This document shows positions 8,975-21,326 of a stretch of DNA of 21,365 nt, piece after piece (position 1 is the first letter of the stretch; each line of letters starts with the position of its first letter). The translations under genes and the position numbers were made by a program. Origin of the DNA: a virus; the IMG/VR virus record IMGVR_UViG_3300042356_001159, positions 1 through 21,365 of that record. One strand, 5' to 3'. Under the pieces are notes generated by a model, which worked only from the letters and a program-made list of their open reading frames with translations, searched no databases and had not been told where the DNA came from.

Positions 8975-10783
8975 ATGTCAGACACATATCTTGACATCGA
9001 GGTAGATTATTCACGTGATAATTTATTCGATATCCTAGGAATCAAGCGACTGCAAGAGTCGTACATGAAGGAAGAAGAGACGAGCCCTCAACAACGATTC
9101 GCTTTCGTATCAAAACAATTCGGGAGTAACCAGAAACATGCGCAGAGGCTTTACGAATACTCTAGTAAACATTGGTTGTCTTATTCTACCCCAATTCTTT
9201 CTTTTGGTCGCAGCGCCCGTGGTCTTCCTATTTCTTGTTTTCTTCCATATCTACATGACAGTAGCGCAGGGTTGGTCGACACTTTATCGGAAGTTAATTG
9301 GCTGAGTATGCTCGGCGGAGGAGTTGGCCTTGGTATTGGGATCCGTTCTGCTGATGATAAATCTGTTGGCGTTATGCCTCATTTGCGCACTTATGATGCA
9401 TCCTCACTCGCTTACCGCCAAGGGCGGACTCGCCGCGGTAGTTATGCTGCTTACTTGGATATCTCTCATCCCGATATTCACATTTTTCTTGAAATGAGAA
9501 AGCCCACTGGTGATCCCAACATGAGAGCGATGAATCTCCATCACGGAATTAATATTCCTGATTCGTTCATGCAAATTATTGAAAACTGTATGAGGGATCC
9601 TAGTGCTAATGATGATTGGGAATTGAAAGATCCTCATAACGGCGAGGTACGCGAAGTTGTATCAGCCAGGTTATTGTGGCAACAGATCCTCGATCTTAGA
9701 ATGCATACAGGTGAGCCGTATCTACATTTCATTGATACAAGCAACCGCATGATGCCTCAGTTCCAAAAGGACTTGGGACTAAGCATCAAGCAAAGTAATT
9801 TGTGTAGTGAAATTATTCTTCCTACAAATAAAGACCGTACAGCTGTTTGCTGTCTTTCTTCATTGAACTTGGAGTACTATGATGAGTGGAAAGAAGATCC
9901 TATTTTCCTTCGTGATGTTGCTGAAATGCTTGACAACGTTCTTCAGTATTTTATTGATAATGCACCTTCCGCCATTGAACGTGCAAGGTTTTCTGCCGAG
10001 CGTGAGCGCAGCATTGGTGTTGGTGCTTTGGGTTTCCATGCTTATCTACAGCAGCAGAATGTTCCGTTCGAAGGAGTGATTGCAAAGTCACTTAACAATC
10101 AGATTTTCTCACACATAAAGGAAAAGCTCGATGAAGCTAACCTCGCCCTTGGCGCTGCTCGAGGAGAAGCTCTTGATGCACGTGGAACTGGTAGAAGGTT
10201 CAGCCACGTTATGGCTATTGCTCCTAATGCCTCTTCTTCAATTATTATGGGTAACACTAGTCCTAGTATTGAGCCTTACCGCGCTAATGCCTATCGTCAA
10301 GACACTCTTTCCGGTGCTCATTTAAATAAAAATAAGTGGTTGGATAGAGTCATTGAAAAACACCTAGCAGGTGATGGTGAAACAATATCAACAAATGATT
10401 ACAATGACATTTGGTCAAGTATTATTTCAAATGATGGATCCGTACAACACTTAGATTGGATGGATGATTGGACAAAGGATGTATTTAAAACATCTATGGA
10501 AATTGATCAGCGTTGGATTATTGAGCATGCAGCTGATCGTCAAAAGTATATCGATCAAGCACAGTCGTTAAATGTGTTCTTCCGTCCTGATAGCAATGTA
10601 AAGTATATCCATGCTGTGCATTTCCTTGCATGGAAGTTGGGATTGAAAACTCTCTACTATTGCCGTTCAGAGAAACTTGCAAAAGCAGACAAGGTGTCAA
10701 GAAAGATTGAACGAATTGTCATGCAAGAGATTGATCTTAAAGCGGTTGCTGATGGCGATGTATGTTTAGCTTGCGAGGGATAA
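8975..10783 (+). CDS. nrdA: Class I ribonucleotide reductase large subunit NrdA (602 aa)
   Basis: NrdA reduces ribonucleotides to deoxyribonucleotides. Key sites are visible: Cys88 in PISCFLP and Cys292/293 in VCCLSSLNL form the redox pair; NLCSEI at 275-280 carries the Asn, thiyl-radical Cys277 and Glu; Tyr561-Tyr562 in LKTLYYCRS lie on the radical transfer path; and PNASSSIIMGNTSPSIEP is at 417-434. The protein ends CLACEG, keeping the C-terminal Cys pair that thioredoxin-type donors reduce. It lacks the N-terminal ATP-cone, so dATP shut-off through that domain is absent, as in many phage enzymes. GGAG at 8964-8967 sets the start. A thioredoxin gene follows directly. Confidence 0.95.
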   Translation: MSDTYLDIEVDYSRDNLFDILGIKRLQESYMKEEETSPQQRFAFVSKQFGSNQKHAQRLYEYSSKHWLSYSTPILSFGRSARGLPISCFLPYLHDSSAGLVDTLSEVNWLSMLGGGVGLGIGIRSADDKSVGVMPHLRTYDASSLAYRQGRTRRGSYAAYLDISHPDIHIFLEMRKPTGDPNMRAMNLHHGINIPDSFMQIIENCMRDPSANDDWELKDPHNGEVREVVSARLLWQQILDLRMHTGEPYLHFIDTSNRMMPQFQKDLGLSIKQSNLCSEIILPTNKDRTAVCCLSSLNLEYYDEWKEDPIFLRDVAEMLDNVLQYFIDNAPSAIERARFSAERERSIGVGALGFHAYLQQQNVPFEGVIAKSLNNQIFSHIKEKLDEANLALGAARGEALDARGTGRRFSHVMAIAPNASSSIIMGNTSPSIEPYRANAYRQDTLSGAHLNKNKWLDRVIEKHLAGDGETISTNDYNDIWSSIISNDGSVQHLDWMDDWTKDVFKTSMEIDQRWIIEHAADRQKYIDQAQSLNVFFRPDSNVKYIHAVHFLAWKLGLKTLYYCRSEKLAKADKVSRKIERIVMQEIDLKAVADGDVCLACEG

Positions 10784-11038
10784 ATGAGACTATTAAAATT
10801 TGAAGCACCGTGGTGTACCAAGTGCCACCAGGTAACAAAGATAATGAGTGAGATGCAGCTACCGTTCCCTGTTGAGGTAATCGACATTGATAAAGCTGAA
10901 AAAGGAATTCTTCTTGAATACGGAATCAGAGGAATCCCACACATGATACTACTAGATGAGAATAACAACATCATTAACCGTATCGGTGGTGTATTAACAA
11001 AGAGCCAACTGACAGAAGCTTTCAATATGAAGGATTAA
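10784..11038 (+). CDS. Thioredoxin-like protein (84 aa, CTKC active site)
   Basis: A short thioredoxin-fold protein with active site WCTKC (Cys11 and Cys14) and the cis-Pro motif GIPHMI (Pro52). At 84 residues it is nearer glutaredoxin/NrdH size than full thioredoxin, but the APWC motif is thioredoxin-like. The ATG follows directly after the nrdA stop, so the two are tightly coupled. The obvious role is to reduce the C-terminal Cys pair of the phage NrdA. CTKC instead of CGPC suggests a tuned redox potential. There is no signal peptide, so it is cytoplasmic. Confidence 0.9.
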   Translation: MRLLKFEAPWCTKCHQVTKIMSEMQLPFPVEVIDIDKAEKGILLEYGIRGIPHMILLDENNNIINRIGGVLTKSQLTEAFNMKD

Positions 11039-11042
11039 GCTT

Positions 11043-11690
11043 TTGTCGAAAACAATAGCTCTTTTCATACACCAGCCAAAGTGTTCTATACAGTCTGGTA
11101 ACGGGATCATGAACGCTCTAAAGGAGCATTACAATTTTAAGGTATTTACTAAACATGAACTTGAGGATGATTTTTTTAACGGTGTTGGTGGTGTCTGCTT
11201 CCCTGGCGGTATTGGCGACGCTGACTCTTTCGATTATCTTCTCCAAAGCAACAGCAGAGTTATCAGGGATTTCGTACAACGAGGCGGTAAGTACCTGGGC
11301 GTTTGCATGGGAGCTTATTGGGCAGGTAAAGAATACTTTGACCTTTTAGAAAGTGTTGAGCCTCAGCAATATATTAAACGACCAAACAGTGATACTCATC
11401 GCCCCCATGCAAAAAATATAAAAGTAACATGGAGAGAAGAACAACAGAAAATGTTCTTTTATGATGGTTGTGCTTTAGTCGGTGATGAGCAAAAATTTAA
11501 AACAATTGCAAGATATTCAAACGGTGACCCAATGGCTATTATTCAGAATAATGTAGGGTTGATTGGATGTCATCCTGAAAGCGAACCTCATTGGTACAGG
11601 AGTTATAGCTGGATGAAAGGTCTTTGGCACGATGGTAGACACCACAAGCTATTATTAGAATTTGTAGACGAATTAATGGAATATAAATGA
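11043..11690 (+). CDS. Class I glutamine-amidotransferase-like (BPL_N-type) protein (215 aa)
   Basis: I place the start at TTG 11043 because AAGGA at 11030-11034 lies 8 bases upstream and the residues fit an N-terminal beta strand (TIALFIHQP). The fold reads as the BPL_N/class I amidotransferase family: VCFPGGIGD at about 51-59, the nucleophile elbow GKYLGVCMGAYWAG with Cys88, and GLIGCHPESEP with His177 and Glu179. These make a plausible Cys-His-Glu triad. Classical GATases use glutamine and pass ammonia to a partner, but BPL_N proteins have no settled substrate that I know of. It lies between thioredoxin and nrdB, and a PP-loop protein follows nrdB, so a nucleotide-linked partnership is possible. 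Confidence 0.75.
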   Translation: MSKTIALFIHQPKCSIQSGNGIMNALKEHYNFKVFTKHELEDDFFNGVGGVCFPGGIGDADSFDYLLQSNSRVIRDFVQRGGKYLGVCMGAYWAGKEYFDLLESVEPQQYIKRPNSDTHRPHAKNIKVTWREEQQKMFFYDGCALVGDEQKFKTIARYSNGDPMAIIQNNVGLIGCHPESEPHWYRSYSWMKGLWHDGRHHKLLLEFVDELMEYK

Positions 11691-12676
11691 ACGCAACAAG
11701 AAAAAAATTAAAATTAACGGATGAACGTAGTTCGTTTAAACCTTTCAACTATCCTTGGGCATACGATACTTGGTTGAAGCACGAGCAGAGTCACTGGCTT
11801 CATACAGAAGTCCCTATGCTTGAAGATGTAAAGGATTGGAAGAACAAATTAAATGAACAAGAAAAGCATTTCCTGACAAACATCTTTCGCTTCTTTACAC
11901 AGGGTGATGTAGACGTTGCTGGTGGGTATGTAAAGAACTACTTACCATACTTCCCTCAACCGGAAATAAGAATGATGTTGACTGGGTTTGCCGCAAGAGA
12001 AGCATTGCACGTTGCTGCTTACAGTCACTTAATTGAAACATTGGGAATGCCGGAGTCAACATATAATGACTTTCTCGAATATGAAGAGATGAGAGATAAG
12101 CACGATTACTTCCTCTCTATAGCCGGACAAGATGCGACAACAATTGCACAACAGATTGCTGCATTCAGTGCATTTACAGAAGGAATGCAATTGTTCTCAA
12201 GCTTCATAATGCTGCTCAACTTTCCACGGCACGGTAAGATGAAAGGAATGGGGCAAATTGTTACTTGGTCTGTCGTTGATGAGACTATGCATGCAGAGGG
12301 AATGATTAAGCTATTCCGCACGTTTATCGAAGAGAATCGTGATATCTGGAACGATCAACTCAAGGGTGAGATCTATAGCATTGCTGAAAAGATGGTCAAA
12401 CTCGAAGATCGATTCATTGACCTTGCATTTTCTTTAGGTGAGATGGAAGACTTAACAAGTGATGATGTAAAAAAATATATTCGCTATATTTGTGATCGTC
12501 GTCTGATTTCGCTAGGCCTCAAAGGAATTTTTAAAGTAAAAAAGAATCCTTTGCTGTGGGTTGAAGAAATGATTAATGCTCCTACACATACAAACTTCTT
12601 TGAGAACAGAGCAACAGATTATGCGAAAGGTGCGACGACTGGTTCATGGGAGGATGTATGGGCAAAGGCAGCTTGA
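11687..12676 (+). CDS. nrdB: Class I ribonucleotide reductase small subunit NrdB (329 aa)
   Basis: NrdB holds the di-iron centre and tyrosyl radical that activates NrdA. The metal ligands are recognisable: Asp74 (QGDVDV), Glu105 and His108 (REALHVAAY), Glu165 (AFTEGMQLF), and Glu199 and His202 (VVDETMHAEG). Tyr112, seven residues after Glu105, fits the radical tyrosine of class Ia enzymes. The C-terminal peptide that docks to NrdA is present (TGSWEDVWAKAA). The start overlaps the amidotransferase-like gene (ATGA), and the last 19 bases overlap the next gene. nrdA and nrdB are split by the thioredoxin and amidotransferase-like genes. Confidence 0.95.
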   Translation: MNATRKKLKLTDERSSFKPFNYPWAYDTWLKHEQSHWLHTEVPMLEDVKDWKNKLNEQEKHFLTNIFRFFTQGDVDVAGGYVKNYLPYFPQPEIRMMLTGFAAREALHVAAYSHLIETLGMPESTYNDFLEYEEMRDKHDYFLSIAGQDATTIAQQIAAFSAFTEGMQLFSSFIMLLNFPRHGKMKGMGQIVTWSVVDETMHAEGMIKLFRTFIEENRDIWNDQLKGEIYSIAEKMVKLEDRFIDLAFSLGEMEDLTSDDVKKYIRYICDRRLISLGLKGIFKVKKNPLLWVEEMINAPTHTNFFENRATDYAKGATTGSWEDVWAKAA

Positions 12677-13338
12677 CATTTAGTGATGGTACGGTATTAG
12701 ATCTTGATTATCATTTTCCTGACATAAAAACTGTTGCCCTCTCAATGTCCGGTGGTGTTGAATCAGCAGCACTTGTACTGCTTCTACAAAAATTCTATGG
12801 TTATGATAATGTGTTTGTTTTCTCTGGTCACATAGAGGGTCGTAGAGCGTGGGAAGCAGAAAATGCTGCCAAACTATCAAAGCATATTGGTGTAAAATAT
12901 TTTCAAGTTATTAAAGATAATTTCCAATTCATGACACCACCAGAAAATAAGCGAATGAGAATACTAGCAAATCAGTATACTCAGTTTGATGGATGGTTTA
13001 ACGGTGCCAATAAGTTATTGTTTGCACCAACATCAATTCTTAAACAAGAAGTCAAAGATTATGTAAGAAACGAAAAGGTTTACATGCCATTCATGGGCCT
13101 GCTCAAACAGCATACAATAGAAATTTTTTATATGCTAGGACGTGAGGATGTCCTGGCAAAGACATTTTCTTGCACCGTAAAGGGCGATACACATTGTGGG
13201 AATTGCTATTGTTGTCTGGAGCGTGCAAGAGGTTTTGCTGTACTTGGAGAAAAGGATCAAGCTACATACGATATAGAATGGGAAGACATTTTAAAACAAT
13301 GTTTTTTCAGCGACCATCGTTTTAATAAAAATTGGTAG
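12658..13338 (+). CDS. QueC-like PP-loop ATPase with zinc site (226 aa)
   Basis: I choose ATG 12658 because GGGAGG lies 4 bases upstream; an in-frame ATG at 12646 would add four residues. The PP-loop ATP-binding motif is SGGVES at 31-36. A C-terminal zinc site, SCTVKGDTHCGNCYCCLERA, has Cys172, Cys180, Cys183 and Cys186, as in QueC, which turns carboxy-deazaguanine into preQ0. The segment LLKQHTIEIFYMLG before it also fits QueC. In phages QueC can serve deazaguanine DNA modification, but no QueD, QueE, FolE or DNA transglycosylase is in this window. It could be a divergent amidating or thiolating PP-loop enzyme instead. Confidence 0.75.
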   Translation: MGKGSLTFSDGTVLDLDYHFPDIKTVALSMSGGVESAALVLLLQKFYGYDNVFVFSGHIEGRRAWEAENAAKLSKHIGVKYFQVIKDNFQFMTPPENKRMRILANQYTQFDGWFNGANKLLFAPTSILKQEVKDYVRNEKVYMPFMGLLKQHTIEIFYMLGREDVLAKTFSCTVKGDTHCGNCYCCLERARGFAVLGEKDQATYDIEWEDILKQCFFSDHRFNKNW

Positions 13339-13347
13339 GAGATAACC

Positions 13348-13530
13348 ATGCTTGAACAAGAAAGAGAACCCGTAATTTGTTACGAATGCGATACTGAATT
13401 CGTTGTACATACACCGTATGAAGATGATCAGGATATATCTTTTTGTCCTTTTTGTGGAACCGAAACAGAAGGTGATAATACAGAATCATTCGATGATTTA
13501 GATGACGAAGAGAGTACGGATAAATTTTAA
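13348..13530 (+). CDS. Small zinc-ribbon protein (60 aa)
   Basis: Two knuckles, CYEC (Cys11 and Cys14) and CPFC (Cys33 and Cys36), form a zinc ribbon. An acidic tail follows (residues about 40-60, rich in D and E). AGGAG lies before the ATG at 13348. Similar short zinc-ribbon proteins beginning EREPVICYECD are common in T4-like marine phages. The acidic tail argues against simple DNA binding; a protein-protein role with polymerase or nuclease complexes is possible. The stop overlaps the ATG of the next gene. Confidence 0.75.
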   Translation: MLEQEREPVICYECDTEFVVHTPYEDDQDISFCPFCGTETEGDNTESFDDLDDEESTDKF

Positions 13531-13925
13531 TGCAATGGATTTACCGCGGGTTACCGTTTGAGGAACCGAGCGATGAATTCTATGGATTTGTCTACAAAAT
13601 AACTAACCAAACTAATCAAAGATCATACATTGGTAAGAAACTTTTCTGGTTTAAGAAAACAAAAATCTTAAAAGGAAAGAAAAAAAGATACCTTGCCCCG
13701 TCAGATTGGAAAACATACTACGGTAGTTCTGTATCTGTTCAAAAGGATTTAGAGCTATTGGGTGCCGAATCGTTTACAAGAGAAATTCTTATACTTTGTA
13801 AAAATAAAGGGGAATGCTCCTACTACGAAGCAAAGATGCAATTTGATCATAGCGTTTTATTAAATCCAGAAATGTATTACAATGACTGGATAATTTGTAG
13901 GGTTCATCGAAAACATATACTATGA
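13530..13925 (+). CDS. SegE-like GIY-YIG nuclease domain protein (131 aa)
   Basis: The GIY-YIG core is visible as GFVYKITN (19-26) and YIGKK (33-37), followed by a basic stretch, YYGSS at 63-67, and a candidate catalytic Glu100 in SYYEA. The Arg expected in the family may be Arg84 (FTREILI). YYNDW near the end is also typical. From memory it belongs to the SegE-like phage GIY-YIG family found widely in T4-like phages, often as single-domain proteins without a DNA-binding module. It may be a homing-type nuclease or a resident DNA-processing enzyme. It overlaps its neighbours by 1 and 4 bases, which argues for a settled operon member. Confidence 0.8.
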   Translation: MQWIYRGLPFEEPSDEFYGFVYKITNQTNQRSYIGKKLFWFKKTKILKGKKKRYLAPSDWKTYYGSSVSVQKDLELLGAESFTREILILCKNKGECSYYEAKMQFDHSVLLNPEMYYNDWIICRVHRKHIL

Positions 13926-15433
13926 CAGAACACGTCGACTTCCTCATTGTTGAGGCTGCATGGTCGTATATGAATCAAGAGGTAATGAATCCCACGTTAA
14001 ATGAAAAGACAAGTGGGATATCATTCAATGGTGATAGGACATCGTTTGCATCAAGATTTATTGGCCCATCCAAGATAGCACAAAGAATTCGTGAGGCTGG
14101 CTACACGTGTCAGGTAATATCGTTCGTTCACTTACTTGATCGCACGCAAATTGATAATGTATTACGTAAGTTTATTGGACCAAAGACAACAATAGGAATT
14201 AGCTCTACGTTTACTAATGGTCGTGGCTGTAAGATTATTGCAATGTTCATGAAGGATCTTGTAAGACCGTATACCACAAATAAAAACAAAACTATCATAG
14301 GTGGCCCGTCCGCTCATATCTGGTCCAAATTGATAGAGAAGCAGGGTTATAAGTTTGATTTTGTTGTTACGAGTTTTGCAGAGAACAAGATAATAGATAT
14401 TGCTAATGCAATTCACAACTACGGAATTGCCAAGAAGACCACCGCACAATGGGATATTGGATCTTGTCAGCATAGATGGCACCCATCATCAATGATACTA
14501 CCCGGTGAATCACTACCACTCGAAGCAGCGAGAGGATGTATATTCGAATGCAAGTTCTGTCGTTTCACAATGCTTGGAAAGAAAAAGGGTACATACGTTC
14601 GTGATATACAGCTACTTCGTGATGAGTTAATGTATAACTATGAAAATTTTGGTACGACCAACTATATGCTTACCGATGATACCTTTAATGACACACCAGA
14701 GAAGGTAGAGATGTGGGCAGAGATGGTCAATCAGTTACCATTCAAAATACAGTATGTCACCTATCTACGTGTTGATTTGATACATCGCTATCCACATACT
14801 GCTGCATTATTACAAGACTCTGGTCTGATTGCAACACACTTTGGTATAGAGTCGTTGACACCGAAAGCATCTAACCTTATTGGTAAGGCATGGTCGGGTA
14901 AGCATGCACGTGATTATGTTCCGGAGTTAACAAAACATATTTGGAAAGATAAGATAAACGTCTTTATCTCCTTGATAGCCGGTTTACCACACGAAACAGA
15001 AGAGGACTGGCACGATGCGGGTAAGTGGGCCGTTGAGAACAATCTTAGTGCATATTATGCGACACTCGGTATTGAGAAGTATAGAACAAAGTTTGAAGGA
15101 TTGTGGGATAACGGAGAGCGTGAGGGGATAAGTTACTTTGATATACATGCAGAAGAATATGGATACACATTTGAGAATGTGAATGGTAACTCAATGTGGA
15201 CACTGAACGGTGTAACGGAGAAGCAAGTTGCACAGATTGTTGCCCCACTCAATAAATACTTTGATCACCATTGTCGTGTTAGTGCCTGGACAGTTACAGA
15301 GTTACTCACACTCGGCCTACCACTCGACTATATCCTTAACAACACACGAAACGTTCTATACAATGACGAGAATAACTTTGATAAAAGACATGACTTTGTA
15401 CAAAAATATTACAGGAAGTTGATCGGTGTCTAA
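13922..15433 (+). CDS. B12-binding-like radical SAM protein A (503 aa)
   Basis: Residues about 1-170 look like a Rossmann-type B12-binding-like domain: a strand DFLIVEA, a helix SKIAQRIREAGYTCQVISF, IGISSTF and TIIGGPSA. I see no DxHxxG histidine loop, so any cobalamin would bind without the lower axial His. The radical SAM domain has RGCIFECKFC (Cys206, Cys210, Cys213) for a [4Fe-4S] cluster, then LTDDTFND and HFGIESL. A linker WDIGSCQHRWH precedes the cluster motif and is shared with the next gene. The ATG overlaps the GIY-YIG stop. Substrate is unknown; methylation or carbon-skeleton chemistry on a glycan, lipid, nucleotide or peptide are options. Confidence 0.85.
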   Translation: MTEHVDFLIVEAAWSYMNQEVMNPTLNEKTSGISFNGDRTSFASRFIGPSKIAQRIREAGYTCQVISFVHLLDRTQIDNVLRKFIGPKTTIGISSTFTNGRGCKIIAMFMKDLVRPYTTNKNKTIIGGPSAHIWSKLIEKQGYKFDFVVTSFAENKIIDIANAIHNYGIAKKTTAQWDIGSCQHRWHPSSMILPGESLPLEAARGCIFECKFCRFTMLGKKKGTYVRDIQLLRDELMYNYENFGTTNYMLTDDTFNDTPEKVEMWAEMVNQLPFKIQYVTYLRVDLIHRYPHTAALLQDSGLIATHFGIESLTPKASNLIGKAWSGKHARDYVPELTKHIWKDKINVFISLIAGLPHETEEDWHDAGKWAVENNLSAYYATLGIEKYRTKFEGLWDNGEREGISYFDIHAEEYGYTFENVNGNSMWTLNGVTEKQVAQIVAPLNKYFDHHCRVSAWTVTELLTLGLPLDYILNNTRNVLYNDENNFDKRHDFVQKYYRKLIGV

Positions 15434-16928
15434 CGTCGTAGATGTATTAATTCTAACAGCTGATGCAGGATCAGATATTGAAGGTATTGTTCATACAAGG
15501 ACAGAACATTCCCAACTAGGAATGCGCACACATGGTGCACATAAAGCTGCTTGGGCAGCAAGACAACATGGCTACACCGTTCAAGTTGTGTCAAAAATTC
15601 ATATGGCTTCTGAAGAGGATATTATAAATGCGTGTAAACAATATATTGGTCCCTTCACCTTAATAGCTATCGGAACAACGCTTATTGCACCACCTTCCTT
15701 TGCATTACCCAAAGGCCATAAAGAAGGCGTTTATAGAATAGGACACACAACAGGAAAGATACACAGAATAATTCAGGGTTTACAGAACCCCTACAACAAC
15801 AAAGTTCTTGTTGGAGGATCACAAGCTAAAGCATTCAAAACGCTTTTTCAAGCTGATTATGTGATACAGGGTGAAGCGGAGAATGAGTTTCCTCAGTTAC
15901 TTGATCGAATATTTCGTAATGGCATACAACGAAAAAGATATGATTGGGATATAAAAGATTGTCGTTTTCGCTGGCACGAGACAGATTACATTCAACCCAA
16001 TGAGCCGCTACCTCTTGAAGCTTCGCGTGGATGTATATTTAAATGTAAATTTTGTGCTTTTCAAGACTTAGGTAAAAGACCAGGTACCTTTGAGCGTCCG
16101 ATACAAAACATCAAAGAAGAGCTTGAATATAATTATGAAAGATGGGGATCAACTTGCTATTGGTTAACTGATGATACGATAAACGATGATAACGATCGCA
16201 TGAACGAGTTCTGTGATATGTTAGAGACACTAAACTTTAAGATTCGATTCAGTGGTTTTTTTAGAATGGATCTTTTTCATCGTTTTCAAAAAACAACCCG
16301 ACGGCTTTATGAGAACGGAATGACAGGTGTTCAAATTGGTGTAGAAACATTTCATCCCCAAGCTGCAAAGACAATAGGTAAAGCGTTTAACGGAAAACAT
16401 GGTAAGGAGTTCCTTCGCCATTTGTATTATGATATATGTGATCAAGATCTTGTCGTTGGTACGTGTAATATAATTGGTCTTCCCTATGAGCGATTTGAGC
16501 ATATAACAGAAACTGTTGAGTGGTACAAGGAGGTCGGGTTTATACAACCATCGTTTAGTCCTCTTTTTGTTAGAGATCCAAAAAGACCGGATCCTAGTTT
16601 AGAGATGGTAAGCGAATTCTCTTCAAATGCAAAAAAGTATGGCTATAGGTTTCCTAGAGAACACCAACCAGCGTGGTGGGTAAATGATCTTTGTAGAATG
16701 GATTCTGATTTTGCTCATGGTAGGGTCTGGTCGATCAAAAGTAAATTACAAGAAACAATGGAGCAAACGATGGATCCGTGGATATCACTGCATTACTTGA
16801 ATATTCTAAAAATTACACCTAAAGAAGCTATGCAAATAGGTTGGAAGAAAATACGAGAGACTGTGGATCCCAGAGTCGTACCACAAGGATACTTTAAGCA
16901 ACTAGGTGTTGACGTTTCGTTTAAATAG
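15426..16928 (+). CDS. B12-binding-like radical SAM protein B, paralogue of A (500 aa)
   Basis: It starts at GTG 15426, overlapping the end of protein A by 8 bases. The N-terminal domain is B12-binding-like (VDVLILTADAG, HGYTVQVVSKI, KVLVGGSQA). The radical SAM motif is RGCIFKCKFC (Cys203, Cys207, Cys210), followed by LTDDTIND and VQIGVETF. The WDIKDCRFRWH linker and the LPLEASRGCIF approach match protein A almost position for position, so the pair arose by duplication or both came from one family. The C-terminal 120 residues differ from A, suggesting different substrates or a hetero-complex. Both need a [4Fe-4S] cluster, which may relate to the phage Fe-S genes upstream. Confidence 0.85.
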   Translation: MSNVVDVLILTADAGSDIEGIVHTRTEHSQLGMRTHGAHKAAWAARQHGYTVQVVSKIHMASEEDIINACKQYIGPFTLIAIGTTLIAPPSFALPKGHKEGVYRIGHTTGKIHRIIQGLQNPYNNKVLVGGSQAKAFKTLFQADYVIQGEAENEFPQLLDRIFRNGIQRKRYDWDIKDCRFRWHETDYIQPNEPLPLEASRGCIFKCKFCAFQDLGKRPGTFERPIQNIKEELEYNYERWGSTCYWLTDDTINDDNDRMNEFCDMLETLNFKIRFSGFFRMDLFHRFQKTTRRLYENGMTGVQIGVETFHPQAAKTIGKAFNGKHGKEFLRHLYYDICDQDLVVGTCNIIGLPYERFEHITETVEWYKEVGFIQPSFSPLFVRDPKRPDPSLEMVSEFSSNAKKYGYRFPREHQPAWWVNDLCRMDSDFAHGRVWSIKSKLQETMEQTMDPWISLHYLNILKITPKEAMQIGWKKIRETVDPRVVPQGYFKQLGVDVSFK

Positions 16929-16957: not shown

Positions 16958-17149
16958 ATGCAACGTCAAAGAATGCAACCAACACCTATTACACTGTACA
17001 ATCGTTTGAACAACGAGAAGATTACTGGTGAGCTTATCAACAACGATGAAATTGAAGGAAAGCAGTTTTATGTTGTTAAAGTAAATAGTCGCGTTCTTCG
17101 TTTTGCGAAGGATGCGTACTCACCTAAGAGAATGTTTTTAACCCGTTGA
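16958..17149 (+). CDS. Small basic protein of unknown function (63 aa)
   Basis: I use ATG 16958 because AAAGGA (16946-16951) lies 6 bases upstream; an earlier in-frame TTG would include the ribosome binding site. The protein is basic and reads as a small beta barrel: PITLYNRLNNEKITGELINN, then GKQFYVVKVNSRVLRFAKD. I do not recognise it, though this form is common in small T4-like phage proteins. It has its own sigma70-like promoter and is followed at once by another promoter, so it is probably an early gene transcribed at high level. Confidence 0.65.
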   Translation: MQRQRMQPTPITLYNRLNNEKITGELINNDEIEGKQFYVVKVNSRVLRFAKDAYSPKRMFLTR

Positions 17150-17174
17150 CATTACATTGTTAATAGGTTATGAT
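17146..17174 (+). promoter_or_regulatory. Strong sigma70-like promoter for the HTH-like gene
   Basis: TTGACA (17146-17151), a 17-base spacer and TATGAT (17169-17174) match eleven of twelve consensus positions. The start of transcription would be near 17181, leaving a leader of about 45 bases before the ATG at 17227 with its AAAGGA site. With the terminator at 17503 it defines a short single-gene transcript. Confidence 0.8.
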
Positions 17175-17226
17175 CGGCCTATTCGTTCAACGAATATTTT
17201 GTTATTATTTTATAAAGGAAACTGAG

Positions 17227-17481
17227 ATGACTCAAAAATCTAAACTACGTCAAGCGTTTTTCAATGGTGCTGAGCTGACCAGCAAACAAATCCGTGCGCA
17301 ATTCAAAATTGCTTCACCTACCAAAGTTGTTAGCATGTTGCGTTTGGAAGACGGCTTGCCAATTTACGCTAACAAGCGTGTTGACACCAAAGGTCGTGAG
17401 ACAATTAAGTTCCGTTTAGGAACACCTAGCCGCAAAGTTATTGCTGCTGGTTACCGTGCCATGGCATTGGGTATTGTCTGA
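17227..17481 (+). CDS. Small helix-turn-helix-like protein (84 aa)
   Basis: The start is ATG 17227 with AAAGGA at 17215-17220; the frame upstream of it covers the promoter and is not coding. Residues about 15-42 (AELTSKQIRAQFKIASPTKV... MLRLEDG) read as a winged-helix or HTH segment with a short wing (PIYANKRVDTKGRETIKFRLG). From memory, proteins with this HTH and the ending RLGTPSRKVIAAGYRA are conserved in T4-like marine phages. It is a candidate DNA-binding regulator. It is the only gene in the window enclosed by its own strong promoter and an intrinsic terminator. Confidence 0.75.
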   Translation: MTQKSKLRQAFFNGAELTSKQIRAQFKIASPTKVVSMLRLEDGLPIYANKRVDTKGRETIKFRLGTPSRKVIAAGYRAMALGIV

Positions 17482-17543: not shown

Positions 17544-17873
17544 ATGAATCATACAGAGTATAAACAAAAAGCTACATACTATAATACATGGACAGAAACC
17601 GAACAACATGCTTTTCGGATATGGTTGTCAAATATGTTACGGATGGGTCCTACTACTGTAACGTTTTTAAAAGTCGATGGTGATGAAGAGCGAGTAATCA
17701 GATGTACTCTTCAAGAAGGAGTTGCAATTCCTCATCAAAAGACTACAGACCGTGTGAAGAAACTTAGTGATGAAGTTTGTCCTGTGTGGGATCTGGAAAA
17801 GAATCAATGGCGTTCGTTCCGCTATGATTCTATTACAAAAATTGAATTTGATTTTGGAGTAAATGATGATTAA
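17544..17873 (+). CDS. DUF2693-like SH3-fold phage protein (109 aa)
   Basis: I use ATG 17544, with GGAG at 17531-17534; an earlier in-frame GTG lies in the terminator. The segment LRMGPTTVTFLKVDGDEERVIRCTLQEG followed by VWDLEKNQWRSFRYDSI fits, from memory, the DUF2693 family of SH3-barrel proteins seen in T4-like phages, some described as WYL-like. An N-terminal helix with Tyr/Trp/Phe precedes the barrel. It is a candidate nucleic-acid- or protein-binding accessory factor; function is unknown. It follows a terminator with no good sigma70 promoter seen between, so it may be expressed by read-through. The end overlaps the next gene by 11 bases. Confidence 0.75.
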   Translation: MNHTEYKQKATYYNTWTETEQHAFRIWLSNMLRMGPTTVTFLKVDGDEERVIRCTLQEGVAIPHQKTTDRVKKLSDEVCPVWDLEKNQWRSFRYDSITKIEFDFGVNDD

Positions 17874-18399
17874 AGAACAAGGTAACATGACCGGTCATGG
17901 ATACAGTATTCTAGGTAAGCTTAAGATGGGGTTCACCTGTTCTGCGTTTGACTTACTACATGCTGGTCATATCCTAATGCTAGAAGAAGCTAGGTCTCAG
18001 TGTGATTACTTGATTGTTGGCTTACAAAATGATCCGTCGGTAGATCGTATCGAGAAGAACAAACCAATTCAATCACTTGTCGAGCGTTACTTGCAACTGA
18101 AAGCTCTAAAGAATGTTAATGAGATCATTGTTTACAACACAGAAAAAGATCTCGAAGACTTATTGTTGATTCTTCCAATCAAAATACGTTTTGTTGGTGA
18201 AGAGTATAAAGACAAAGACTTGACTGGTCGTGAGACTTGCAACGAACGAGGTATCGAGATCTATTATAACAAACGTGAGCATACGTTTAGTACAACAGAG
18301 CTTCGTGCCAGGATTGCTCGTATGGAATCACAAAAGACTTCATACACTCTTAATGTAGAGCCAAGTCGTGTCGGTACCATCAAGTGGACTGAGCCATGA
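17863..18399 (+). CDS. HxGH-motif nucleotidyltransferase (TagD/HldE-C-like, 178 aa)
   Basis: This is a cytidylyltransferase-like Rossmann protein. Key motifs are FTCSAFDLLHAGHILML with HAGH at about 33-36, then DYLIVGLQND, and the C-terminal FSTTELRARI that matches the (R/T)xSTT loop. Such enzymes add CMP or AMP to a phosphosugar or alcohol phosphate: TagD uses glycerol-3-phosphate, and the HldE C-terminal domain uses heptose-1-phosphate. The heptose-type kinase downstream favours a heptose substrate, but the nucleotide cannot be told. Adjacent ATGs at 17863 and 17866 compete; the second has better spacing from GGAG, and ATG 17887 is also possible. The 30 residues at the end are outside the usual fold. 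Confidence 0.8.
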   Translation: MMIKEQGNMTGHGYSILGKLKMGFTCSAFDLLHAGHILMLEEARSQCDYLIVGLQNDPSVDRIEKNKPIQSLVERYLQLKALKNVNEIIVYNTEKDLEDLLLILPIKIRFVGEEYKDKDLTGRETCNERGIEIYYNKREHTFSTTELRARIARMESQKTSYTLNVEPSRVGTIKWTEP

Positions 18400-19343
18400 A
18401 TGTAGCGGTAACAGGTTCTCATGGATATATTGGCTCTATCCTACGTAAGATGTTAACGGAGCAGGGATATAAAACGTTTTGTTGTGATAATAAACTCTCT
18501 AACGATCTAAAATATACCAACTCGTTTACCAACTCATCATTTGATGATCCTTTATTTGTTAACACTGTTATAGACAATGACTGTCAGGTAATATTCCACC
18601 TTGCTGCCAGTAGCTTGCTTGGTCCAAGTGCCAAGGATCCATTACTGTATTACTATAACAATACAGCGCGAACAACACGATTCCTTCAACGACTTGATAG
18701 CCTAGGATGGACTGGTCATGTTATTTTCTCAAGCACCGCAGCTGTGTATGGTGCACAGGATAAACCGGTTGAAGAAATATCTCTTAAGCAACCATGTAAC
18801 CACTATGGTCAGAGCAAATTAAACTGCGAACAGGTGTTGGATAACATGCACCTATACGGAACAAGAGTTACCATGTTCCGTTACTTCAATGTAGTAGGAG
18901 CATATGGTGATGTTGGCCAAAATTATGGCGAGCCTCATCTTCTGACTCGTGTATGTAATGCTGCAATAGGAAGACTTCCATTGACTGTTTATGGTAATGA
19001 CTACGATACGCGTGATGGAACGTGTATCAGAGATTACGTCCATGTTAGAGATATTTGTCAAGCACAGATCCATGCAATGAATATTGATACAATAAATCAA
19101 AATGGAGCAGACGTATTTAACTTAGGAACGCATGAAGGAACAAGTGTTCTTGAAATGGTACATCAGTTCCAAGAAGTAACTGGTGTCAAGTTTGACTACA
19201 CGGTAGGACATAAAAGAGAAGGCGATCCAGCTTTCCTTGTTGCCAACCCACAGAAATTCATTGACACTGGATTCAAATACCAGTATAGTGATAAGGAAGA
19301 AATTATTACGTCAGCATGGAATTATTTTAACAGGAGTGATTGA
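18396..19343 (+). CDS. GalE-like NAD-dependent sugar epimerase (315 aa)
   Basis: This is an extended SDR enzyme acting on nucleotide sugars. The NAD-binding motif GSHGYIG is at 7-13; the catalytic set is Ser/Thr in FSSTAAVYG (111-119) and Tyr137 with Lys141 (YGQSK). FRYFNVVGA at about 161-169 and RDYVHVRDI at about 212-220 match UDP-glucose 4-epimerases. VFNLGTHEGTSVLEMV also fits GalE. UDP-sugar 4-epimerisation is the best guess, though related enzymes include 4,6-dehydratases and heptose epimerases. The ATG overlaps the upstream stop (ATGA), and the stop overlaps the next ATG. It is in the sugar cassette. Confidence 0.88.
   Translation: MNVAVTGSHGYIGSILRKMLTEQGYKTFCCDNKLSNDLKYTNSFTNSSFDDPLFVNTVIDNDCQVIFHLAASSLLGPSAKDPLLYYYNNTARTTRFLQRLDSLGWTGHVIFSSTAAVYGAQDKPVEEISLKQPCNHYGQSKLNCEQVLDNMHLYGTRVTMFRYFNVVGAYGDVGQNYGEPHLLTRVCNAAIGRLPLTVYGNDYDTRDGTCIRDYVHVRDICQAQIHAMNIDTINQNGADVFNLGTHEGTSVLEMVHQFQEVTGVKFDYTVGHKREGDPAFLVANPQKFIDTGFKYQYSDKEEIITSAWNYFNRSD
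19261..19289 (+). promoter_or_regulatory. Candidate internal sigma70-like promoter
   Basis: TTGACA (19261-19266), a 17-base spacer and TATAGT (19284-19289) match eleven of twelve consensus positions, inside the last 85 bases of the epimerase gene and about 54 bases before the glycosyltransferase start. The quality of the match makes chance unlikely, but its position in coding sequence leaves doubt. It would give the glycosyltransferase and kinase genes their own transcript. Confidence 0.5.
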
Positions 19344-20335
19344 TGGGATTTGAAGTTAATGAAATATCAAAGAATTCAAAAGGTGGTACAGAGTTGATGA
19401 GGATGGGGTTGGAAGAAAGACTTCCGGCCGAGTTACTTGAGGACTTCCAGATTATTTGTTCAAGAGTTCGTACTATTGAAGATGATAAGATTCGTGTTTA
19501 CTGGTTACATGACCTACCAGAAGATCCTGAGACGAATCACTTGAAAGACTCTGATAGTCGTGACCGATTCCACAAAATGGTATTCTGTGGTAACTGGCAA
19601 TATACACGGTATCGTGATTATCTTGGTGTTCCTCATGACGACTCAGCAATTGTACTAGAGACAGCAATTGATCCAATTACATTTGAGTCCAAGCCAAAGG
19701 ATGAGGTGCGTCTGGTATACACATCAACACCACAGCGTGGATTAGAATTACTTGTACCGATATTCATTGAGCTGTGTAAGAAGCATGACAATATTGTTCT
19801 CGATGTATTTTCTAGTTTTAATATCTACGGCTGGGCCGAGTCTGATAAACCATATGAGAAGCTTTTTGAGATATGTCGCGATCATCCAAAGATTAACTAT
19901 CACGGAGCACAGCCAAATGAAGTTGTGCGTGAAGCTCTAAAGAAAGCCCACATTTTAGCATACCCATCTATTTGGATGGAATGCAATAGCCGTAGTGTTA
20001 TTGAAGGCATGAGTGCTGGTATGCTGTGTGTGCACCCCAACTTAGCTGGCTTACCTGATACGTCTGGTGGAATGAACTTCATGTATCAGTGGGATCCAGA
20101 TAAACAAAAACATGCACGGAAGTTCTACACAGCTCTGAGTAACGCTATTGATATCGTTCATACAGAAGATATTGGTAATTATTTACGGCTTGTCAAGATG
20201 TATACCGATTCACGTTACAATTGGACTAAAGTTGCTTCACAGTGGCAAGATTTATTGATGGAATTGAAACACAAGTATCCTTCCGTTAATTCGCGCCGTG
20301 ATCAAGGGCCAATGTTTAACTATACAGTGAATTAA
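19343..20335 (+). CDS. GT4-like glycosyltransferase (330 aa)
   Basis: I use ATG 19343, with AGGAG at 19332-19336, rather than the TTG one codon before. The N-terminal part has the acceptor-side KGGTELM motif (13-19), and the C-terminal half has VRLVYTSTPQRGLELL at about 122-137 and the retaining GT4/GT-B signature YPSIWMECNSRSVIEGMSAG, with the E-x7-E pair Glu213 and Glu221. It would transfer a sugar from a nucleotide donor made by the neighbouring genes to a glycan, lipid, protein or modified DNA. No signal or membrane segment is seen, so it acts in the cytoplasm. The first stop overlaps the start codon of this gene by one base. Confidence 0.85.
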   Translation: MGFEVNEISKNSKGGTELMRMGLEERLPAELLEDFQIICSRVRTIEDDKIRVYWLHDLPEDPETNHLKDSDSRDRFHKMVFCGNWQYTRYRDYLGVPHDDSAIVLETAIDPITFESKPKDEVRLVYTSTPQRGLELLVPIFIELCKKHDNIVLDVFSSFNIYGWAESDKPYEKLFEICRDHPKINYHGAQPNEVVREALKKAHILAYPSIWMECNSRSVIEGMSAGMLCVHPNLAGLPDTSGGMNFMYQWDPDKQKHARKFYTALSNAIDIVHTEDIGNYLRLVKMYTDSRYNWTKVASQWQDLLMELKHKYPSVNSRRDQGPMFNYTVN

Positions 20336-20336
20336 T

Positions 20337-21326
20337 ATGATCGTTACAAGAACACCATTGCGCATTAGTTTCTTTGGCGGTGGTAGTGATGTTGAAGCTT
20401 TTTATAGTCAACACCAAGGTGCTGTTCTGTCAACTACAATTGACAAATACATTCACCTCGCTGTCCAGGAAGTTGCTCGTCCACACTATAAAATAATGTA
20501 TAGCGAGATTGAGCAAGTAGAATCTGGAAACGATATAAAGCACGATAGAGTGAAGGAAGCATTTCGTTACTTCAATATTCCTGCAGGAATTGAGATTGCT
20601 TCGTTTGCTGATATTCCTACAAAAGGTACTGGCCTAGGTTCCAGTTCCGCGTTTACCTCTGGGTTAGTTCAAGCACTTTCTGCATATACGAGTAGACCAA
20701 TGAGTAGATACGACGTTGCTGACTTAGCATGTAAGATTGAAATTGAGATGTGTGGTGAGAAGATTGGTAAGCAGGATCAGTATGCATCAACGTTTGGTGG
20801 TTTCAACTTTATTACGTTTGATAAAGAAACAGTTGAAGTGGCACCTCTCAATATTCCATCACAAACACTAGAGATGTTTAGCGAGCACTTATTGTGTTTC
20901 TATACAGGCCAGACAAGAAGTGCATCAACGATTCTTTCTGAACAAGTAGAAAAATTAACACGCAAGGACAGCGATATTACGTTCTATACCAAAGAACTTG
21001 TTGATATGGCACACACTGCTAAGGCTGAGTTACGTTCTGGTAGACTACATAATGTAGGTGCATTGCTTGATGACGGCTGGCGTATAAAGAAGAAGCTTTC
21101 TTCTGGTATATCAAATCCATTGATTGATCAGATGTACGAGGATGCGTTGAAAGCTGGTGCGTTAGGTGGTAAACTACTAGGTGCTGGTGGTGGCGGGTAC
21201 TTACTACTATATGTACCTACACGACATCAGGTGTGTGTTCTGGAAAAGCTAAAGCATTATCAGAATTTTATTTTCAACTTCACCGATAAGGGAAGTTCAA
21301 TCGTGTATAGTGATCATGTATACTGA
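20337..21326 (+). CDS. HddA-like heptose 7-phosphate kinase (GHMP family, 329 aa)
   Basis: GHMP-fold sugar kinase. Motif 1 is RTPLRISFFGGGSD (about 5-18), the ATP-binding motif 2 is GTGLGSSSA (97-105), and motif 3 is GGKLLGAGGGG (277-287). GKQDQYAS (144-151) and the overall pattern match D-glycero-alpha-D-manno-heptose 7-phosphate kinase (HddA), which makes the 1,7-bisphosphate in nucleotide-heptose synthesis. Length is normal for HddA. It starts one base after the glycosyltransferase stop. It fits with the nucleotidyltransferase at 17863; a fucose or other sugar kinase of the same family is the alternative. GmhA/GmhB partners may lie beyond the window. Confidence 0.85.
   Translation: MIVTRTPLRISFFGGGSDVEAFYSQHQGAVLSTTIDKYIHLAVQEVARPHYKIMYSEIEQVESGNDIKHDRVKEAFRYFNIPAGIEIASFADIPTKGTGLGSSSAFTSGLVQALSAYTSRPMSRYDVADLACKIEIEMCGEKIGKQDQYASTFGGFNFITFDKETVEVAPLNIPSQTLEMFSEHLLCFYTGQTRSASTILSEQVEKLTRKDSDITFYTKELVDMAHTAKAELRSGRLHNVGALLDDGWRIKKKLSSGISNPLIDQMYEDALKAGALGGKLLGAGGGGYLLLYVPTRHQVCVLEKLKHYQNFIFNFTDKGSSIVYSDHVY

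Follow-up and report, generated by a model that had tools for sequence, protein, structure and literature searches.

The window, by which we mean the whole stretch of DNA analysed, is 21,365 bases long and represents positions 1 to 21,365 of the virus record IMGVR_UViG_3300042356_001159. The pair, the cassette around it, the sugar genes and the Fe-S genes described below all lie on the plus strand. Two open reading frames, both encoding B12-type radical SAM proteins, are arranged head to tail: protein A (13922..15433, 503 aa), the conserved partner, and protein B (15426..16928, 500 aa, with a GTG start), the faster-evolving one. The stop of A and the start of B share an 8-nt overlap, GTGTCTAA (15426..15433), and the coordinates, the sizes and the overlap were exact in the original prediction. 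The window comes from a T4-like phage, as indicated by its gp61-type primase, RNR and SegE; the closest relatives of the primase are found in cyanophages and in one pelagiphage. The overlapping record L003 is 99.84% identical to the window and additionally carries GmhA and an ORF of 284 aa, which we take to be a T4-type RNase H.

Both proteins exceed the Pfam Radical_SAM cut-off of 29.5 bits (49.4 bits for A and 48.7 bits for B). The CxxxCxxC motif noted earlier is present in A (C206, C210 and C213; 14537..14560), where it supplies the ligands of the SAM-binding [4Fe-4S] cluster, as well as in B (C203, C207 and C210; 16032..16055), and its cysteines are invariant in 45/45 family members. A and B are homologous, with 34% identity across 408 aa (E 3e-68), which bears out their description as paralogues. 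The identity is highest in the radical SAM core (41%), lower in the N-terminal domain (29%) and lowest in the C-terminal domain (16%), so the two do differ in the last third, as had been proposed.

Structure prediction, suggested as a check in the original prediction, gave confident AlphaFold models for A (pLDDT 86.5, pTM 0.89) and B (pLDDT 88.7, pTM 0.90). Both models consist of an N-terminal five-stranded Rossmann domain, a radical SAM barrel and a C-terminal helical domain. The closest structures by VIA-align Z were AprD4 (21.9), MgmA (20.9), OxsB (20.5) and TsrM (20.3) for A, and AprD4 (21.7), MgmA (20.5) and OxsB (19.8) for B; the top matches of both models, at Z of about 19-22, also include CysS and MiaB/RimO, and a structure missing from these lists is not counted as lacking similarity. 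Based on these neighbours, of which OxsB, TsrM and CysS align along their whole length, the models place A and B in the B12-type radical SAM fold.

The N-terminal domain of A (13922..14416), delimited from predicted secondary structure and column conservation, carries a GG pair at 127-128 and the motif S94xT96 at the SxL position. In the 45-member alignment the GG is conserved in 45/45 sequences, S94 in 39/45 and T96 in 38/45, and position 151 is Ser in A and Gly in 42/45 members. The axial histidine of the DxHxxG motif is missing from the family in this alignment, and the Ser/Thr motif occupies the loop after strand 3; the placement of GG and the Ser/Thr motif in a pocket follows the alignment, the model itself being free of cobalamin. 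Class-1 enzymes likewise lack the axial histidine motif DxHxxG (PMC13331322). The Pfam B12-binding domain gave no match in A and a sub-threshold match in B (E 0.009), while PF02310 was matched at E<=1e-3 by 6/45 family members (best 4e-8). The earlier description of the N-terminal domain as B12-binding-like thus agrees with the Rossmann domain of both models and with the matches in these relatives, and we infer that A and B bind cobalamin. To our knowledge, AprD4 does not use cobalamin; its rank as top structural match, together with the unrecognised Pfam domain in A, counts against cobalamin binding, whereas the pocket motifs of the A/B family suggest B12 use.

No curated reaction family fits A or B, the best score reaching 18% of any cut-off. 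The profiles of the PhpK-family P-methyltransferases (TIGR04479; 59.8 and 57.7 bits for A and B, cut-off 600) and of the ladderane-type, lipid biosynthesis B12/radical SAM proteins (TIGR04072; 56.0 and 66.2 bits, cut-off 360) are the best curated ones and are matched by 45/45 members, at a level which indicates the same superfamily only. The AprD4 profile gave 27.9 bits for B against a cut-off of 500, with A unlisted, and the MiaB/RimO methylthiotransferases, whose overall fold is similar (Z 18.6-20.1), gave 15.4 and 25.3 bits against 251 (TIGR00089). The profile search of B12 radical SAM subfamilies, also suggested beforehand, therefore yielded no close match to a characterised family, and the statement that no reaction is assigned to this pair holds.

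The nearest well-studied systems are the class-1 cobalamin-dependent radical SAM enzymes OxsB, TsrM, TokK and CysS, and also MgmA, which resemble A and B in domain order, fold and cluster motif. Judged from aligned sequences, the likeness appears to extend to the GG, the loop-3 pocket positions and the lack of an axial histidine. By structural alignment, however, A and B are only 11-15% identical to OxsB, TsrM, TokK and CysS and 15-18% identical to MgmA; they are shorter than OxsB, TokK and CysS, and their cobalamin binding and reaction are predicted ones. AprD4, a radical SAM diol-dehydratase, has the best Z for both proteins and is the best PDB sequence match of the family profile, but its identity in structural alignments is 12-16% and its score lies far under the NCBIfam cut-off. 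Among phage proteins, A0A6J5LFT0 and A0A6J5LDK6 from uncultured Caudovirales (COG1032 / Radical SAM) have the same fold over the whole length, with a TM-score of 0.7-0.8 and 18-23% identity. A defence role was considered and rejected, as PADLOC returned only PDC-M51A (42 and 34.5 bits), which reflects B12/radical SAM resemblance.

Upstream of the pair lie genes for primase, ThyX, RNR and a thioredoxin-like ORF. Downstream, a sugar cassette (17863..21326) encodes an HldE-C-like nucleotidyltransferase, GalE, a GT4 glycosyltransferase and an HddA-like GHMP kinase, with GmhA next in L003. The SDR gene nearest to the pair scores as a plain GalE epimerase (270.8 bits, cut-off 262.3), which gives no sign of an AprD3-type partner, the NADPH-dependent reductase that works with AprD4. 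The position, with nucleotide genes on one side and a sugar cassette on the other, from which a sugar, nucleotide or surface target had been proposed, is correct; the tie to sugars is one of synteny only, because the L010-L012 records lack the HddA kinase and the other family branches have no sugar genes as neighbours. The overall interpretation was thus supported in part, and it had missed both an exchangeable cassette and the Fe-S assembly genes of the phage (5740..6771; IscU/NifU-like, PF01592 at 180 bits, and two A-type carriers, PF01521 at 56.9 and 61.8 bits). The latter were rejected as a component of the system, since NifU is absent from L010-L012 and the two are not coupled. The GT4 gene carries, within 145 bases at its end (20149-20293), 10/11 of the differences between the window and L003, as expected for a local recombination tract.

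The comparison with the record L170 concerns the exchangeable cassette. Its left boundary is the conserved NrdB (11687..12676; 97% identical to L170 and 89% to L010 and L012), which is followed by a PP-loop (QueC-like) ATPase (12646..13338; PF06508 43.3 bits, phrog_1550), a SegE-type GIY-YIG endonuclease (13530..13925; PF19835 E 4.6e-37), whose stop shares 4 nt with the start of A, and then A and B. A small ORF after B (16958..17149) forms the right boundary. The DNA of L170 is 91% identical to the window at 10127 to 12764 and 86% at 16991 to 17251; between these flanks it carries a single B-type gene (46% identical to B) and no A, followed on the 3' side by the same small ORF and the next window gene. 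The PP-loop protein of L170 is only 47% identical to that of the window, in comparison with 61-65% in the A-containing records L010 and L012 (65% in L012). Given such similar flanks and NrdB around a diverged PP-loop and B and a missing A, the PP-loop gene, SegE, A and B form a cassette that is exchanged on a conserved backbone. SegE may be what drives the exchange, which is a guess. The PP-loop protein was rejected as a general partner of the family, as it occurs only in the window lineage, with weak or unrelated matches elsewhere.

Several further features of this region were observed. The PHROG family phrog_447 is described as NAD synthetase; Pfam assigns its window member (13530-13925) to the SegE-type GIY-YIG proteins, and the PHROG label looks wrong. 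At the left edge of the cassette an inserted ORF, presumably PstS-like judging from its sequence, separates NrdB from the PP-loop gene in L010 (2167-3225), L013 (5662-6720) and L168 (3662-4720). A second variable slot precedes NrdB (window 11043-11690) and holds a BPL_N/GATase-like gene in the window and L170; in L010 and L012 it is filled by a nuclease-like gene and a further small gene.

The IMG/VR scan gave 77 loci, many of them with overlapping pairs, and about 75 loci of uncultured viruses carry relatives. The overlap in the other tandem pairs is mostly 8 nt, and 1, 4 or 14 nt in the rest. By tblastn against cultured phages there was no match for A, B or the proteins of L022 and L043, and a single weak partial match (E 1e-3) for an L008 protein; no PHROGs family was matched by A or B, and we found no paper on the A/B pair in the literature. 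The family occurs as overlapping pairs in uncultured phages and is nearly absent from the cultured-phage records searched. As to whether the two always co-occur in related phages, which was to be checked, pairs recur widely and in several family branches, but the pairing is not constant: L170 has B alone and many phages have a single member.

In the first tree the two window proteins grouped together, and so did A and B of the freshwater type, where "freshwater-type" is our label for the clade with L008, L021, L034 and others rather than a statement on sample origin. A joint clade of the A proteins, expected if the window-type and freshwater-type pairs had a common origin, was rejected (AU p 1.7e-5). 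Both results indicate that, as far as the phylogeny of these sequences goes, the two types of pair arose separately. The sisterhood of window A and B is only tentative once L175 and L084 are included (AU p 0.29). In both well-sampled clades the core is 87% identical between A proteins and 60-62% between B proteins, and B changes 2-3 times faster than A at the protein level. The dN/dS is far below 1 among relatives of A and of B, with dS near saturation, which points to purifying selection on both proteins. The window and L003 differ at 11 positions over 7,020 bases, none of them in the shared parts of A and B; together with the low dN/dS, this argues against a chance pair. In L018 (3440-4142) an A-type gene lies in two frames near residue 97-128, due to a frameshift or an assembly error. 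The family member on L093, filed as a Parcubacteria MAG, groups with that of phage L078, and the contig is probably viral contamination of the MAG; by eye it has RNase H-like and PhoH-like ORFs, and we take it to resemble a piece of a T4-like phage.

The neighbourhoods of family members differ between phage groups. The freshwater-type members are accompanied by a tryptophan-halogenase-like gene and an HMPTM-type radical SAM gene, the marine-type ones have a flavin reductase on one side and a FabA/Z-like dehydratase on the other, and the cellular ones adjoin genes for NRPS, asparagine synthase, fatty-acid desaturase or a haem-oxygenase-like oxidase, or an ACP-like ORF. This favours general small-molecule tailoring, with sugar not singled out; the genes beside the cellular members, in particular, suggest a setting of tailoring enzymes. 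The B12-type radical SAM enzymes perform difficult chemistry on unreactive carbons, and the usual reactions of the class are methyl addition or the rearrangement of small molecules. Cobalamin-dependent radical SAM enzymes have been linked predominantly with methylation in a 2026 preprint (PMC13142503). The explanation we prefer, and to which we give about an even chance, is that A and B serve as tailoring enzymes of the B12-type radical SAM class within an accessory cassette and probably C-methylate or rearrange a small molecule or a surface precursor. Methylation, the class of substrate and the action of A and B in sequence are the parts of this explanation that we infer, and no biochemical relative is close enough for its reaction to be transferred. 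The Ser of A at position 151 and the differing neighbourhoods of the family also speak against it.

According to this explanation, A and B, with the class-1 architecture of OxsB, TsrM and TokK, would form the variable end of the cassette and would be co-translated via the overlapping start. The [4Fe-4S] cluster held by CxxxCxxC would cleave SAM to give a 5'-deoxyadenosyl radical, which would abstract hydrogen from the substrate, and cobalamin, bound in the N-terminal domain in a base-off and His-off state, would donate a methyl group or steer a C-C rearrangement. A may catalyse the conserved step; B, with its diverged C-terminal part, may catalyse a related step, either on that substrate or on a sibling of it, and may be able to act without A. 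A bolder version, which we consider quite unlikely, is a two-step B12 radical SAM pathway for a new substrate, in which A is fixed, B diversifies and a PP-loop activator is swapped together with A and B beside a homing-type endonuclease; if it were true, phages would gain exchangeable chemical decorations.

It is possible, though rather unlikely, that the pair instead modifies a heptose or another sugar of the adjacent cassette, by C-methylation as in GenK/GenD1 or by deoxygenation as in AprD4, and so alters the host surface or the phage DNA. The adjacency of nucleotidyltransferase, GalE and GT4 is kept in the window, L010 and L012, the best structure by Z is the sugar-acting AprD4, with a lead over the next match within about 1, and sugars are the substrates of class B radical SAM methylases in gentamicin synthesis (PMC5461906). 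Against a sugar substrate stand the kinase missing from L010-L012, the about 240 bases and small ORFs that separate B from the sugar cassette, the other neighbours of the wider family, the plain epimerase score of GalE and the low AprD4 family score. Modification of phage nucleotides or DNA seems very unlikely: the pair follows NrdB and the QueC-like PP-loop gene, with RNR and ThyX nearby, the PP-loop gene is exchanged along with the radical SAM genes, and the structural match OxsB acts on the nucleotide 2'-deoxyadenosine monophosphate (PMC13142503), but the QueC-like protein aligns only to the C-terminal part of QueC, and no other deazaguanine genes were recognised among the window ORFs searched, the window being part of a genome.

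It is doubtful that the pair remodels host membranes by acting on fatty-acyl or lipid chains, an activity suggested for ladderane-type B12 radical SAM proteins. The idea draws on the TIGR04072 match in every member, on the dehydratase beside the marine relatives and on the desaturases or ACP-like ORF beside the cellular ones; no acyl gene was recognised near the window pair, the TIGR04072 scores are 56-66 bits against the cut-off of 360, and a long distance separates the window-type branch from the marine one in the tree. An obligate A-B heterodimer of one catalytic and one accessory subunit would fit the overlapping genes, the recurrence of pairs and the conservation of A next to a diverging B in both well-sampled clades. 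We nevertheless consider it improbable, as the B-type gene of L170 stands by itself between the same flanks, single members occur in many phages and every cluster cysteine is kept by both partners.

For tests of the substrate chemistry, the contrast between A and B and the B-only relative L170 offer ready-made comparisons, and the substrate, if found, would reveal a type of chemistry introduced into cells by phages. Pelagimyophages carry radical SAM cassettes that are reported to set two phages apart in their hypervariable host-recognition region (PMC7029224). Uncultured phage records with many radical SAM genes were also observed: L060, L052, L056, L062, L021, L082 and L067 (G033, G031, G032, G034, G014, G042 and G036) have 9-16 such genes in 32-86 kb, and the large records L035, L070, L080 and L017 (270-383 kb) have 11-15 and also encode Gp23, the capsid protein of T4. 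By comparison, 0-2 radical SAM genes are present in three cultured T4-like genomes of 141-198 kb.
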